From positions 1-34,216 of the forward strand of contig JAHIRB010000012.1 of assembly GCA_018818885.1 (NCBI GenBank): 34,216 nt of DNA. Direction: 5' to 3'. The notes under the pieces are model-generated. The model was not told the DNA's origin and made no database searches. It saw nothing but the letters and a program-made list of their open reading frames with translations. Source of the DNA: Patescibacteria group bacterium. GTDB taxonomy: Bacteria > Patescibacteriota > Patescibacteriia > Buchananbacterales > SURF-54. A program made the position numbers and the translations under genes. Shown here in pieces: positions 11,456-15,894 of the stretch (position 1 is the stretch's first letter; each line of letters starts with the position of its first letter).

Positions 11456-11456
11456 G

Positions 11457-11529
11457 TCGGGGCGATGGGACTCGAACCCACGACCTCCTGCTCCCAAGGC
11501 AGGCGCTCTACCAGCTGAGCTACGCCACG
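11457..11529 (-). tRNA. tRNA-Pro (TGG)
   Basis: The minus strand folds as a cloverleaf: D-arm GCTC-AGCTGGTA-GAGC, anticodon arm CCTGC-CTTGGGA-GCAGG with anticodon TGG, and T-arm GTGGG-TTCGAGT-CCCAT. The acceptor CGTGGCG/CGCCCCG has a U3-C70 mismatch where tRNA-Pro normally has G3-C70. CCA is not encoded (ACA follows), unlike tRNA-His. It reads the CCN codons used in the proline leader peptide upstream. Confidence 0.9.
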
Positions 11530-11710: not shown

Positions 11711-13750
11711 CTATTTACGAATTTGACCATTACCACGTACTACCCACTTATAACTAGTTAATTCACGTAAACCCATTGGTCCACGGGCATGTAGTTTTTG
11801 TGTGCTTATTCCTATTTCGCAACCTAAGCCAAACTCCCCACCATCTGTAAAAACAGTCGGCGCATTACTATATACTACTGCTGCATCTACATGCTGGAAG
11901 AATTCTTCTATATTCGCCTTATCTTGTGAAATTATTGCTTCGCTGTGACCTGAACTATATTTTTTAATATGTTCAAGTGCTTCATCCAAATTTGCTACTG
12001 TTTTTATTGACATTTTCAACGATAAAAATTCTCTTCCAAAATCTTCTTTGGAAGCTTTATGCAATAGCTCTTTTGGATAATTATTTTCCAAATAAGTATA
12101 AGCTTGATCGTCTGCAAATATTTCAACCCTATACTCCACTAAAGGTATAACCAGCTGAGATAAATCTGCTAGTCTGTCTTTGTGTATTATAAAAGTATCT
12201 AATGCATTACAAGCTGCTGGTCGAGATGTTTTTGCGTTGTTTATAAGTTTTTTTCCCATTTCTAATTCTGCTGTCTTGTCAAAAAACATGTGTACTACGC
12301 CTGCGCCAGTTTCAATTACAGGTATTTGACTATTTTCTCTTACATAGTTAATAAGACCTTGACTTCCCCTAGGGATAATTACATCAACTAAACCGTGAGC
12401 TTTAAATAGAGTATTAACTGATTCTCTTTGTGCAGTAAGTAAGGTTATGATATTCTTATTAATATTATTTTTTTCTAAAGTTTCTTGAATAATTAAAAAA
12501 AATATTTTATTTGAATTAGCTGCATCACTTCCGCCCTTTAAAACACAGGCATTGCCTGCTTTAAAACATAGAGAAAATACATCAGGAGTAACATTGGGTC
12601 TGGATTCGTAAATTACTGCTATTACTCCAATTGGTACACTTCTTTTTTCTAACTCCAGACCATTATATAGCGTTCTTTCTTCTAATTTAATATCTAATGG
12701 CGATGGTAGTTCTGCTACATCTTTTAAACCATCAATAATTGAATCAATCTTTTTATTATCGAGTGATAATCTCAAATACTTTGGATCTTTTCTATCCATT
12801 AATTCTAAATCTTTCTTATTCTCTTTTAAAATATTATCTCTCTTTTTATTGATAGTATCAGCTAAATCTAAAATTACTTGATTAGTTTTCTTATCACTAA
12901 TTTCAACTAATTCCTGGCAAGACTGCTTTACTAATTGCAGGTTATCTAAAATATCTTTTTTATCTTTTGCGCCAAGTTCTTTTGCTCTGTCTCTTGCCTT
13001 ATCAATTCCTTCAAAAAAAATTTTATCGATTCGTTTCTCTGCAAAATATTCCATAGCTGCCTCGGTTGTTCCACCAGTAGAGGTAACAGCTTCTCGCCAC
13101 TGCTTAGCTGTCTTATTGCTTGCTTTAAATAATTCTGCAGCACCTAAAAATATGGCTCCTGCAATTTTTTCTGAATCTTTATTGAATCCATACTCTTTAG
13201 CTTTTTTTTCTATCAGTTCACACAAATAAAAAAAATAGGCTGGACCAGAACCGCTTAAAGCTGTAATGGAATCAATGTTATCTTCTTTGTTTAACTTAAT
13301 TTGCCCTCCCATGGAATTAAAAATTTTTTTAGTATCGTTAATATCCTCTTTAGAACAACCGCTTGAACTAATCCAGGCAGTAAAACCTGTTTTAACCGCA
13401 ATTGGCAAATTAGGCATAGCTCTTACTACGCGTTTCGCACCTGTTTTCTTTTCTATTGTTTTTAGCTCAACGCCTGCCATTATCGAAATTATTAATTTAT
13501 TGCTTAAATCAAAATTTATTTGATCCAACAGAGTATCAAATGACTGGGGTTTAACTGCTAAAATCACGACATCTGATTTTTTTATAACGGCATCAGCATC
13601 GGTGAAGAAATTTAAAACCTCTAGCTTATCTACTATTACTTTATCTTTGCCGCATACTATAATATTATTTTTATCGATTACCTCACTCATACACTGATAT
13701 ATCGCTCTGCCCATATTACCAAACCCTATTATCGAAATTTTCTTATTCAT
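11711..13750 (-). CDS. Fused pyrroline-5-carboxylate reductase / gamma-glutamyl-phosphate reductase
   Basis: A 679-residue fusion of ProC and ProA. Residues 1-260 are ProC: the NAD(P)-binding GFGNMG is at 9-14, with AMPNLP at 111-116, SGSGPAYF at 166-173 and TSTGGTT near 223-229. A linker of about 10 residues leads to ProA (about 271-679), which has VPIGVIAVIYESRPNVTPD, the ACVLKGGSDA cofactor segment and the catalytic cysteine Cys514 in SRPAACNALDTF. The enzyme would perform the second and last steps of proline synthesis from glutamate, with a spontaneous cyclisation between them. Its start overlaps the proB stop (ATGA). The frame is unbroken, and both halves look complete. Confidence 0.93.
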   Translation of the reverse strand: MNKKISIIGFGNMGRAIYQCMSEVIDKNNIIVCGKDKVIVDKLEVLNFFTDADAVIKKSDVVILAVKPQSFDTLLDQINFDLSNKLIISIMAGVELKTIEKKTGAKRVVRAMPNLPIAVKTGFTAWISSSGCSKEDINDTKKIFNSMGGQIKLNKEDNIDSITALSGSGPAYFFYLCELIEKKAKEYGFNKDSEKIAGAIFLGAAELFKASNKTAKQWREAVTSTGGTTEAAMEYFAEKRIDKIFFEGIDKARDRAKELGAKDKKDILDNLQLVKQSCQELVEISDKKTNQVILDLADTINKKRDNILKENKKDLELMDRKDPKYLRLSLDNKKIDSIIDGLKDVAELPSPLDIKLEERTLYNGLELEKRSVPIGVIAVIYESRPNVTPDVFSLCFKAGNACVLKGGSDAANSNKIFFLIIQETLEKNNINKNIITLLTAQRESVNTLFKAHGLVDVIIPRGSQGLINYVRENSQIPVIETGAGVVHMFFDKTAELEMGKKLINNAKTSRPAACNALDTFIIHKDRLADLSQLVIPLVEYRVEIFADDQAYTYLENNYPKELLHKASKEDFGREFLSLKMSIKTVANLDEALEHIKKYSSGHSEAIISQDKANIEEFFQHVDAAVVYSNAPTVFTDGGEFGLGCEIGISTQKLHARGPMGLRELTSYKWVVRGNGQIRK

Positions 13751-14835
13751 ATGTTTGTTTTATTATTTGATAAATATAAATAATCATAATGCACGATTGC
13801 GCGTTTTCCTTTTTTGCCAACATATCTTTCTGCTATATCATCTCCATACTCTGCCTTCCCTACTCCCAGATATTCTCCATTTTCGTTTTTAATTGTTAAG
13901 ATATCATTCTTCTTAAAATTTCCTTCTATCTTTACTACCCCAATAGGGAGCAAACTACAAGTCTTATTTTCTGAACACACCTTCTTTTCAATACACTCAT
14001 TTATATAAATTACGCCCTTACTTGATCCGTTTGATGTCGCAAGCCATTTCTTAACACTCGAAATTTTTTTACCAGCTAAAAATGTAGTTCCAACATTTTT
14101 CCCACACATCACATCTACTAAAATATTTTCCTTTTCACCATCGACTATATGAGTTGTTATTCCTATATCAGCCAGTTTTTCTGCCACACTACATTTAGTA
14201 ATCATTCCACCGCGGCCAAATGTCGATTTTGAAGGAACAACAAAATGTTTCCATGTTTTATCGTTTTTTTCTATTACCTTTATTAATCTATTACTTTCTA
14301 AATCCATCACACCTTCCACGTTGGATAAAATCATTAAAATGTCCGCATTTACTATACCTGCCACCAATCCGGCTAGCTCGTCGTTATCAGTAAACATTAA
14401 TTCACTAACTGCAATTGTATCGTTTTCATTAACAATTGGTATAATATTATTATCTAACAGGCTTGAAAAACAATTTTTCATATTTACGTAATGATTTCTT
14501 GTTCTAAAATCTTCTCTTGTACATAAAACCTGAGCAATGTTCAAATTATGCTGCTTAAAAGTTTCTTTATAGATTCTCATTAATTCTATTTGGCCCACTG
14601 CGGAAAACGCCTGTCTTCTTACTACCTCGTCTTTTTCATTCTTAAGTTTAACTATCGCCCTACCAGCTCCTACTGCACCAGAAGAGACTATTAAGACCCT
14701 ACTCTTATTTTCAATTATTTTTGCTACTTGTTGTACAATTTTTTTAATAATATCAATATTAATATTTCCATTATCTTTAGTGATCATGGTTGTCCCTATT
14801 TTTATTACGATAGTATTTTCTTTGCTCTTTATCAT
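13747..14835 (-). CDS. proB: Glutamate 5-kinase
   Basis: A 362-residue protein. The amino-acid-kinase domain (residues 1 to about 255) has VIKIGTTMI, VSSGAVGAGRA, PIVNENDTIAV and FGRGGMITK. A C-terminal PUA domain (about 280-355) follows, as in full-length bacterial ProB. It phosphorylates glutamate, the first and usually feedback-regulated step of proline synthesis. The stop overlaps the start of the ProC-ProA fusion, so two coupled genes cover the whole pathway. Expression is probably controlled by the leader peptide and terminator just upstream. The start codon lies 12 bp after the T-run of that terminator and lacks a clear Shine-Dalgarno. Confidence 0.95.
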   Translation of the reverse strand: MIKSKENTIVIKIGTTMITKDNGNINIDIIKKIVQQVAKIIENKSRVLIVSSGAVGAGRAIVKLKNEKDEVVRRQAFSAVGQIELMRIYKETFKQHNLNIAQVLCTREDFRTRNHYVNMKNCFSSLLDNNIIPIVNENDTIAVSELMFTDNDELAGLVAGIVNADILMILSNVEGVMDLESNRLIKVIEKNDKTWKHFVVPSKSTFGRGGMITKCSVAEKLADIGITTHIVDGEKENILVDVMCGKNVGTTFLAGKKISSVKKWLATSNGSSKGVIYINECIEKKVCSENKTCSLLPIGVVKIEGNFKKNDILTIKNENGEYLGVGKAEYGDDIAERYVGKKGKRAIVHYDYLYLSNNKTNI

Positions 14836-14847
14836 AGTTTTTACAAC

Positions 14848-14869
14848 AAAAAAATCCCCAGGTCTGGGG
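14848..14869 (-). terminator. Attenuator terminator before proB
   Basis: CCCCAG (14864-14869), 2-nt loop, CTGGGG (14856-14861), then an A and seven T on the minus strand. The proB ATG is only 12 bp further on. Because A and T runs flank it on both sides, it could also stop plus-strand transcription. Confidence 0.85.
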
Positions 14870-14957
14870 TTTTTTTGTTTGTCTAATTTTTCGCTTATTT
14901 TATATACAAATACCCACAGACCATAAGTCCAAGTTGCTAGGTGGGGTAGGTTGTGGG
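14848..14957 (-). promoter_or_regulatory. Proline attenuator (alternative RNA pairings)
   Basis: Read on the minus strand. Region 1, CCCACA (14952-14957, in the proline codons), pairs with TGTGGG in region 2 (14913-14918). Region 2 as GGTCTG-U-GGG (14913-14922) can instead pair with region 3, CCCCAGACC (14861-14869), over 9 bp with one bulge. Region 3 as CCCCAG (14864-14869) alternatively forms the terminator with CTGGGG (14856-14861), followed by ATTTTTTT. Region 1:2 thus favours termination and 2:3 prevents it, the logic of trp- and his-type attenuators. Confidence 0.8.
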
Positions 14958-14971
14958 CTTCGATATAGCAT
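14900..14971 (-). CDS. Proline-rich leader peptide of the pro operon
   Basis: A 23-residue frame that starts MLYRSPQPTPPSN and ends before TAA at 14900-14902. Prolines lie at positions 6, 8, 10 and 11, all within six codons (CCA, CCT, CCA, CCT). The ATG is about 5 nt from the expected transcription start. Stalling at Pro10/Pro11 would cover pairing region 1 and leave region 2 free, allowing antitermination. A ribosome reaching the stop codon would cover region 2 and allow the terminator. The peptide itself probably has no function. Its small size makes chance possible, but codons, pairings and promoter agree. Confidence 0.75.
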   Translation of the reverse strand: MLYRSPQPTPPSNLDLWSVGICI

Positions 14972-14981
14972 AAGTATTTAT

Positions 14982-15010
14982 ATCTTATAGTATGTAAATA
15001 AATTTGTCAA
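14982..15010 (-). promoter_or_regulatory. Promoter of the pro operon
   Basis: TTGACA (15005-15010) and TAAGAT (14982-14987) are 17 bp apart on the minus strand; TATAAG (14984-14989) is an alternative with 15 bp. Transcription would start near 14975, just before the leader peptide ATG at 14971. Confidence 0.78.
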
Positions 15011-15047
15011 CCTCGCCGAAGTCCGAGTCAACGAGACGAAGGCGGGT
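15010..15047. repeat. GC-rich palindromic repeat
   Basis: cctcgccgaagtccgagt and gacgaaggcggg form an imperfect palindrome of the same CGCCGA/TCGGCG family seen near 3600, 7600 and 29115. It lies between the transporter gene and the pro promoter and may also end the transporter transcript. Confidence 0.55.
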
Positions 15048-15051
15048 CAAA

Positions 15052-15894
15052 TTAATAATGATAAAGAAGCAAAACTCCAATTACAATGACTAGCATACCA
15101 ATAATTTTTTGTGGAATGCGCTTGTATTCTTTTAAAAATATAATTCCCATCAAAACTGCAAAAACTAATGAACTCTGAACTACTGGAACTACTTTTGATA
15201 CTTCGCCAATCTTTAATGACATAAACATAAACAATTCAGAAATTCCAAAAAATCCACCAGCTAAAATCAAACCCCATTTATTTACTTTGAACTCTTTGAT
15301 AATGGTTTTTGGTTTAAACTTTAGGAAAGTAAAAATCAAGATACCAATTAACATTAATTCTAGCGATGCCATCAAATTGGCAGAAAAATCCTTAATAGCA
15401 AATTTAGCGAAGACAATCGCACAAGCTCCAAAGACAGTGCTTAAAATCGTAAAAGTTATACCTTTAGACCAGTTAACTTTTGCTTTTTCATATAATGCAA
15501 TAATCACGCCAATAATAATTAATAGAACTGCCGATACTTTTACTAGAGTAATTGATTCGGCAAAAAATAAAAAGCCTGCTAACAAAACTAAAATATGACG
15601 AGACTGCCACACGATTTTAAATAAGGAAACATCAATTAACTTTAAGGCGACAAAACCAGACCAGTCAGAAAGTAATGCAAATATCACTAATCCAATAAAA
15701 AACAGCCAAGTAATGTTGTGTGTTGGTAAACTAAAATTAATAAAAATAACTGGCAGTAGTATTGCACCAGCAATAAAATCGTGAATAGCAGTAAAAGCCA
15801 AGGCATCACCTTGCTTTTTCAAAAAAGCTCTGGCTATTACCGTAGACAGTGCGAAAAAAAATGCTGTTAAAAGTGAAAATATTAACCAATTCAT
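15052..15894 (-). CDS. EamA/DMT-family transporter
   Basis: A 280-residue protein with ten predicted membrane helices in two similar halves, the standard size and layout of drug/metabolite transporter (EamA) proteins. The second half begins near WSKGITFTILSTVFGACAIVFAK and ends with the conserved run VFAVLMGIIFLKEY. Substrates in this family range from amino acids to nucleosides. Standing next to the proline operon suggests amino-acid export, but this is weak evidence. TATACT ends 6 bp before the ATG, so the mRNA is leaderless. Confidence 0.82.
   Translation of the reverse strand: MNWLIFSLLTAFFFALSTVIARAFLKKQGDALAFTAIHDFIAGAILLPVIFINFSLPTHNITWLFFIGLVIFALLSDWSGFVALKLIDVSLFKIVWQSRHILVLLAGFLFFAESITLVKVSAVLLIIIGVIIALYEKAKVNWSKGITFTILSTVFGACAIVFAKFAIKDFSANLMASLELMLIGILIFTFLKFKPKTIIKEFKVNKWGLILAGGFFGISELFMFMSLKIGEVSKVVPVVQSSLVFAVLMGIIFLKEYKRIPQKIIGMLVIVIGVLLLYHY

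Follow-up and report, generated by a model that had tools for sequence, protein, structure and literature searches.

A probable leader-peptide attenuator of proline synthesis in a Patescibacteria bacterium, with candidate leaders for further amino acids in the same genome

Directly before the proline synthesis gene proB of a very small and uncultured Patescibacteria bacterium lies a short reading frame rich in proline codons, followed by a transcription terminator, which raises the question of whether and how the transcription of this operon responds to proline. The stretch of DNA analyzed (34,216 nucleotides) is called the window in the following. Judged from its sequence, the region is very probably a ribosome-mediated (leader-peptide) transcription attenuator, which would couple the transcription of proB and of a proC-proA fusion gene to the supply of charged tRNA-Pro. 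The elements occur in the DNA in the following order and spacing:

15052-15894, minus strand: EamA-type transporter gene, ending 180 bp upstream
14982-15010, minus strand: leader promoter TTGACA-17-TAAGAT, 10 of 12 consensus matches
14900-14971, minus strand: leader reading frame MLYRSPQPTPPSNLDLWSVGICI, 23 codons, as read from the sequence; Pro-rich counterparts in 12 other genomes
14939-14956, minus strand: control codons Pro6 CCA (14956-14954), Pro8 CCT (14950-14948), Pro10 CCA (14944-14942) and Pro11 CCT (14941-14939)
14949-14957, minus strand: region 1 CCCACAACC, pairs with region 2 and overlaps Pro codons 6 and 8
14913-14922, minus strand: region 2 GGTCTGTGGG, partner of region 1, or of region 3 with one bulged U
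14861-14869, minus strand: region 3 CCCCAGACC, 3' strand of the antiterminator and 5' arm of the terminator
14848-14869, minus strand: intrinsic terminator CCCCA-GACC-TGGGG (14869-14856) with a T7 run (14854-14848)
13747-14835, minus strand: proB, glutamate 5-kinase with PUA domain, 362 aa (TIGR01027, AA_kinase, PUA)
11711-13750, minus strand: proC-proA fusion gene, 679 aa (TIGR00112, TIGR00407), overlapping the stop of proB

The product of proB scores 300.5 bits against TIGR01027 (cut-off 186). The fusion protein, a pyrroline-5-carboxylate reductase joined to a glutamate-5-semialdehyde dehydrogenase, reaches 212.1 bits with TIGR00112 (cut-off 196.75) and 419 bits with TIGR00407 (cut-off 317.45). 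A single operon of two genes encodes all steps from glutamate to proline, and both genes serve the synthesis of the very amino acid that the leader would sense. A preliminary description of this DNA had additionally pointed to a tRNA-Pro(UGG) gene in the same block. The gene is present downstream of the operon (11456-11529, minus strand), but it is one of two in the genome, the other being located at L265 3909-3983, and it features a promoter-like sequence of its own (TTGACA-17-TAAGAT), because of which it probably lies outside the operon. The genome comprises 1.35 Mb on 51 contigs and belongs to a large class with genomes of roughly 1 Mb. A tRNA-SeC(UCA) predicted in it by ARAGORN may indicate selenocysteine use or represent a false call. 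Before the leader promoter, a GC-rich element (window 15011-15050, GACCCGCCTTCGTCTCG...CGGCGAGG) has an 82% identical copy at L002 1501-1543 and is possibly a dispersed repeat.

The leader promoter combines the -35 box TTGACA (15010-15005) with the -10 box TAAGAT (14987-14982) at a spacer of 17 nt on the minus strand. From the -10 spacing, a transcript start near 14975 is predicted, and RNA polymerase would begin a few bases 5' of the leader ATG, which is located 10 nt downstream of the -10 box; the predicted 5' UTR comprises 0-6 nt. The reading frame in the window is not preceded by a Shine-Dalgarno sequence, which is typical of attenuators without defining them. In every leader found by the blind scan described below, the start codon lies 6-13 nt past the -10 box, which leaves no space for a Shine-Dalgarno sequence and therefore makes leaderless initiation likely. 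On the basis of the predicted promoters, the leaders are probably translated from leaderless or almost leaderless transcripts. All four proline codons among the 23 codons of the frame fall within a span of six codons. The promoter, the frame with Pro at positions 6, 8, 10 and 11, the pairings and the terminator had been described before, and these assignments proved exact to the base.

Regions 1 and 2 form the helix CCCACA(ACC)/(GGTC)TGTGGG. This pairing is present as claimed, but the full helix is longer than originally described, since an outer extension reaches from just 5' of the leader ATG to just 3' of the leader stop and spans the leader frame. Regions 2 and 3 form GGTCTG-U-GGG/CCCCAGACC with 9 pairs and one bulge, and this antiterminator and the terminator 3:4 are mutually exclusive. 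A single A separates the TGGGG of the terminator hairpin from the T7 run, after which 12 nt remain to the proB ATG at 14835. This gap is too short for any promoter, so the mRNA of proB must pass the terminator, and the region is therefore an attenuator in the broad sense. The leader RNA folds with -40 kcal/mol versus -23.1 +/- 3.3 kcal/mol in shuffles (z = -5.2; 0 of 200 shuffles as good), and three terminator-like sites were observed in the region versus 0.3 expected, two of them being opposite-strand views of one near-palindrome. Scored as uninterrupted helices, the 2:3 (p = 0.36) and 1:2 (p = 0.31) pairings of the window are no better than shuffles, this score being blind to the bulged U of the real 2:3 helix.

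The positions also agree with the geometry proposed earlier, according to which a stall at Pro10/Pro11 frees region 2 and a ribosome at the stop hides it. With Pro11 in the A site, a ribosome would reach to about nt 42, region 2 at nt 50-59 would stay free, and the RNA downstream is calculated to fold into 2:3 (-10.0 kcal/mol). Having reached the leader stop, a ribosome would cover nt 51-81 from the ATG, thus hiding region 2, and the downstream RNA then folds as the terminator. In several relatives, region 2 is located at or just beyond the leader stop, still within the ribosome footprint. According to the proposed mechanism, a ribosome would start on the nearly leaderless AUG and, with Pro-tRNA being scarce, would stall at Pro 6-11 and cover region 1. 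Region 2 could then pair with region 3, the terminator would be blocked and proB would be transcribed. With ample Pro-tRNA, the ribosome would proceed to the stop and cover region 2, allowing 3:4 to form and transcription to end before proB. In the case of no translation, 1:2 would form, and so would the terminator.

Comparable leaders were found in relatives. A search with TIGR01027 for genes similar to proB covered 381 genomes of the class and 380 sampled from the phylum, and the sequence upstream of the genes found was inspected. The same layout occurs with different sequence before proB-like genes of 12 other genomes, i.e., one of the same order (G003), eight of the class (G041, G105, G036, G303, G326, G178, G047, and G236) and three from other classes of the phylum (G531, G624, and G520). 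The comparison with relatives proposed in the preliminary description, which looked for conserved runs of Pro codons and pairings, thus turned out in favor of the attenuator. In G003, TTGACT-17-TAGAAT is followed 6 nt on by the ATG of the leader MLIVQNYLQLNPPVVTGSHCLGSFVM and then by a terminator, with the pairings AAACTACC/GGTAGTTT (1:2) and TCTGGG/CCCAGA (2:3); its ProB is only 29% identical to that of the window. Further leaders of the class are MKILTKNLRLNLLPLLPLKNGRFSYFVI (G041), MKYAITLTPPQAHTSDRKLA (G105), MEYTIITTPPQPKQPDRKLA (G036), MNKIISPIYPPINLDV (G303), MSNNLPQPKPSNKTPG (G326), MKKLFSNNQAPHPREIDFSAR (G178), MNQRFIKVNPSNVPAPRESGCFGL (G236), and VKTLSSNSIPFPTTSC (G047), and those from other classes read MNYQYQYTKLNLPRPLPI (G531), MLLAQFNTGTSTPPPRAGRVPCA (G624), and MKYGIRLVFIAPTPPVTGC (G520). 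The 2:3 pairing recurs with unrelated letters, namely as GTCGGGGT/GCCCCGAC in G531, as GCTGGTGG/CCGCCAGC in G047 and as GATTTTCAT/ATGAAAATC in G041, where GATTTTCAT pairs either with ATGAAAATC at the start or with ATGAAAATC in the terminator arm. Among the 13 leaders, neither a conserved sequence nor an aptamer was found; what is kept is the reading frame, the Pro codons and the pairing logic. The leaders share no alignable sequence and have diverged too far to be described by a single covariation model. The sole other genome of the window's family has no proB, so that a fine compensatory analysis has no close relative to draw on.

The genes behind these leaders are related to proline as well. 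Leader and proB are followed by proC and proA in G326 and G047 and by proC in G178. In G303 and G520, the gene 3' of the ProB-like kinase encodes prolyl-tRNA synthetase, as would be expected if the signal is charged tRNA-Pro. The kinases at these two loci (L132 and L189) are short and without PUA domain, and the Pro leader and kinase are followed there by the synthetase, not by proA or proC.

Leaders were also counted by a blind scan, which used no amino-acid criterion and required a promoter score of at least 8.5, a start codon 3-16 nt downstream of the -10 box, an ORF of 8-40 codons and a terminator within 110 nt. Matches were obtained in 11 of the 83 proB regions from Patescibacteria, each with at least two Pro in the leader; most regions (72/83) are without such a leader at this threshold. 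The leaders of G036 and G236 fail the scan and were added by eye, outside this count. Proline accounts for 31 of the 215 residues of the blind-scan leaders versus a background of 3.3% in the long ORFs of the genome (p = 8e-12; p = 3e-10 with the window left out). Combined over the leader set and compared to shuffles, the pairings reach p = 5e-9 (2:3) and p = 0.007 (1:2). No match occurred in 80 proB regions fetched by protein similarity, mostly from Bacteroidota/Chlorobiota and four from Patescibacteria. These loci are the closest by protein, with 42-49% identity to the ProB of the window, which thus resembles the enzyme of other phyla, while the leader is shared with members of its own phylum. 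Some short frames were rejected: those at L113, L123, L124, and L169 have promoter scores of about 8 or less and no Pro excess, and Pro-containing frames before proB in L004, L005, L008, L009, and others have no terminator in place.

Such leaders could also respond to something other than the supply of proline. An arrest peptide or Pro-Pro stall sensor reporting EF-P activity or the state of the ribosome would be one such case, which we regard as very unlikely. Pro-Pro stalls in leaders of other systems can report EF-P, this factor is encoded in the genome of the window, and about half of the leaders contain Pro-Pro (G000, G003, G105, G036, G303, G624, and G520). Nevertheless, the layout is kept in leaders without Pro-Pro (G178, G326, G041, G531, G236, and G047), and the regulated genes are those of proline synthesis and prolyl-tRNA synthetase. 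Moreover, sister leaders of the genome (see below) use Cys, Leu, Lys, and Gln, none of which is linked to EF-P. Since EF-P is encoded, pausing at Pro-Pro is expected to be relieved as long as proline is available.

The idea that a C-rich region 1, which must mimic region 3, produces the Pro codons as a by-product is very unlikely indeed and has already been refuted for the most part. Region 1 does overlap Pro codons in the window, and the leaders contain 12-36% C. However, the 13 leaders hold 38 CCN codons in frame, whereas their two alternative frames hold 17 and 18 (Fisher p = 6e-4), i.e., about half as many, and clusters are rare there: at least two CCN within four codons occur in 13 of 13 leaders in frame, compared to 2 and 3 leaders in the alternative frames. 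The Pro codons of G041 lie outside its region 1, which reads ATGAAAATC. The Pro codons are therefore no side effect of C-rich pairing regions. It is extremely unlikely that the hairpin merely terminates the upstream EamA-type transporter gene and that the short frame is a chance ORF. This gene indeed lies on the same strand 180 bp upstream, with no other clear terminator found between it and proB, but a consensus promoter stands between it and the hairpin, the 12 nt from T-run to proB are too short for another one, and the order promoter-ORF-hairpin-proB with Pro codons recurs in 12 other genomes.

Further support for a leader-peptide attenuator comes from the remaining genome of the window, every contig of which was scanned for near-leaderless leaders with terminator and pairings. 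A Cys leader (MNSNKCQQNTCNCCCNCCCLPHFSIC) precedes an SbnI-like gene and cysK, a Leu leader (MKPFSLKLNQNLKALLLLLLPFGGRFTYV) precedes leuA, a Lys leader (MQYTALNLKNKKSPA) dapA, and a Gln leader (MQVLISNNQQQNQSQFLLC) nadE, the downstream genes belonging to matching or related pathways. The leuA product stays below the equivalog cut-off and carries a LeuA dimerization domain. The helix sums of the non-Pro leaders found in this genome range from 30.5 to 50, compared to a maximum of 29.5 in one shuffled genome; the Pro leader of the window, with 29.5, is the weakest by this measure and level with that maximum. Elsewhere, the Cys type was found again before cysK in G255 (MNYNIEKLICCCKKSTIAGNYCC) and G196 (MLKIYKNLNICCAERC), and dapA of G001, a genome from the family of the window, is likewise preceded by a leader of the Lys type (MKYFLLSNKDKKPAT, recognized by eye). 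The genome also contains biased leaders without a clear target gene (MNKVLSNNLVITISLVVLILVVLI, MNIMQNNWYFGFYFFTDPEARVS, MIKITSTIIIEIIISQPLGGSLLRV, and MIISLNTIITNDTIDTKIGWVCGIT); the types without a recognized target are Ile/Leu/Val, Ile and aromatic, with a Thr/Ile candidate besides. Candidate leader loci, all on the minus strand, are L232 (G000:C1:19901-38774), L218, L266, L280, and L268. A ninth candidate, before metK, appeared attenuator-like in the scan and was discarded as a SAM-I/IV riboswitch (L266 4386-4511, minus strand); the scan accordingly catches other attenuators as well. The preliminary reading as an attenuator is thus backed by the recurrence in relatives, the frame-specific proline and the matched Cys, Leu, Lys, and Gln leaders of the genome.

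The riboswitch before metK and T-boxes before proB in two genomes of the phylum would suit an attenuation in which the RNA itself (T-box or riboswitch) or an RNA-binding protein acts as the sensor instead of leader translation; such sensing is nonetheless exceedingly improbable here. The T-boxes were detected in G101 (E = 6e-14) and G428 (E = 3e-11), both below the Rfam curated score, and two different devices thus appear to place proB under tRNA-dependent control within one phylum. The Patescibacteria T-box leaders before proB are located at L101 1199-1433 and L155 1285-1454, and one that stands elsewhere is at L125 462-687. For the leader of the window, a T-box is excluded: the model RF00230 gave no match in it and detected the positive controls in L101, L155, and L125. 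Likewise, no Rfam family reached its cut-off in this leader, the best score of a leader family being 21.4 bits for Phe_leader versus a gathering threshold of 55. In addition, the features kept in the 13 leaders are the frame, the Pro codons and the pairing logic, not an aptamer, and the other leaders of the genome have codons matching their own pathways.

Beyond proline, we consider it likely that leaderless attenuators of the leader-peptide type are the general means by which a Patescibacteria lineage with near-minimal genomes regulates its amino-acid synthesis. Their specificities would include Pro, Lys, and Gln, and their recurrence with unrelated sequences looks like the result of repeated gain or rebuilding. 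Leader-peptide systems had been reported from Proteobacteria and Actinobacteria alone until a survey in 2010 added Firmicutes (PMC2965389). In the open-licence literature, we found no description of leader peptides or attenuation for Patescibacteria or the Candidate Phyla Radiation, which is suggestive rather than proof, and neither a leader-peptide attenuator before proB nor a Pro-codon leader for proline synthesis. This agrees with the initial statement that no Pro-codon attenuator is established for proBA or for such organisms. Likewise, no precedent was found for Pro before proB, Lys before dapA or Gln before nadE. The proposed mechanism itself is known; as far as literature was found, the pathway specificity, the phylum and the predicted leaderless form would be new. 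If true, these mostly uncultured, gene-poor bacteria would sense amino-acid shortage without dedicated regulator proteins, and proline, lysine, and glutamine would join the pathways under leader-peptide attenuation. The leaders would further provide a natural set of leaderless examples for studying transcription-translation coupling from the first base. Moreover, short ProB-like kinases without adjacent proA or proC would be tied to proline, by shared regulation, and to prolyl-tRNA synthetase.

Among known systems, Bacillus proBA is under T-box control. The T-box of proline genes (Bacillus proBA as well as G101 and G428) shares with the window the gene and, by analogy, the signal, i.e., uncharged tRNA-Pro; it differs in that the tRNA binds the RNA directly and no leader ORF is involved. 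The trp, his, leu, ilv, thr, and phe attenuators of Proteobacteria resemble the window leader in featuring a short ORF with runs of cognate codons, a cognate pathway, exclusive 1:2, 2:3, and 3:4 pairings and an intrinsic terminator immediately upstream of the first gene. The window differs from them by proline, by proB-proCA and by the phylum Patescibacteria, and its leader AUG is predicted at or near the 5' end, whereas theirs is preceded by a Shine-Dalgarno sequence. In Salmonella, the mgtP (mgtCBR) and mgtL (mgtA) leaders are rich in Pro codons like that of the window, and it was experimentally shown that low charged tRNA-Pro lowers termination (PMC3641672). However, these leaders control Mg2+ transport and virulence genes instead of proline synthesis, have no sequence relation to the window leader, and mgtP, unlike the latter, features a Shine-Dalgarno-like sequence (PMC3641672). 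The trpL attenuator of Sinorhizobium meliloti is leaderless, its transcript beginning at the AUG of the leader ORF (PMC7298713). Unlike the window, it concerns tryptophan in Alphaproteobacteria, and its peptide and small RNA have additional functions in trans (PMC7298713). In mycobacteria, leaderless short polycysteine ORFs are reported to sense Cys by runs of Cys codons and thereby parallel the Cys leader before cysK in the genome of the window (PMC9031893). They act on the translation of downstream genes and have no conserved terminators (PMC1262725), in contrast to the leaders of this genome.
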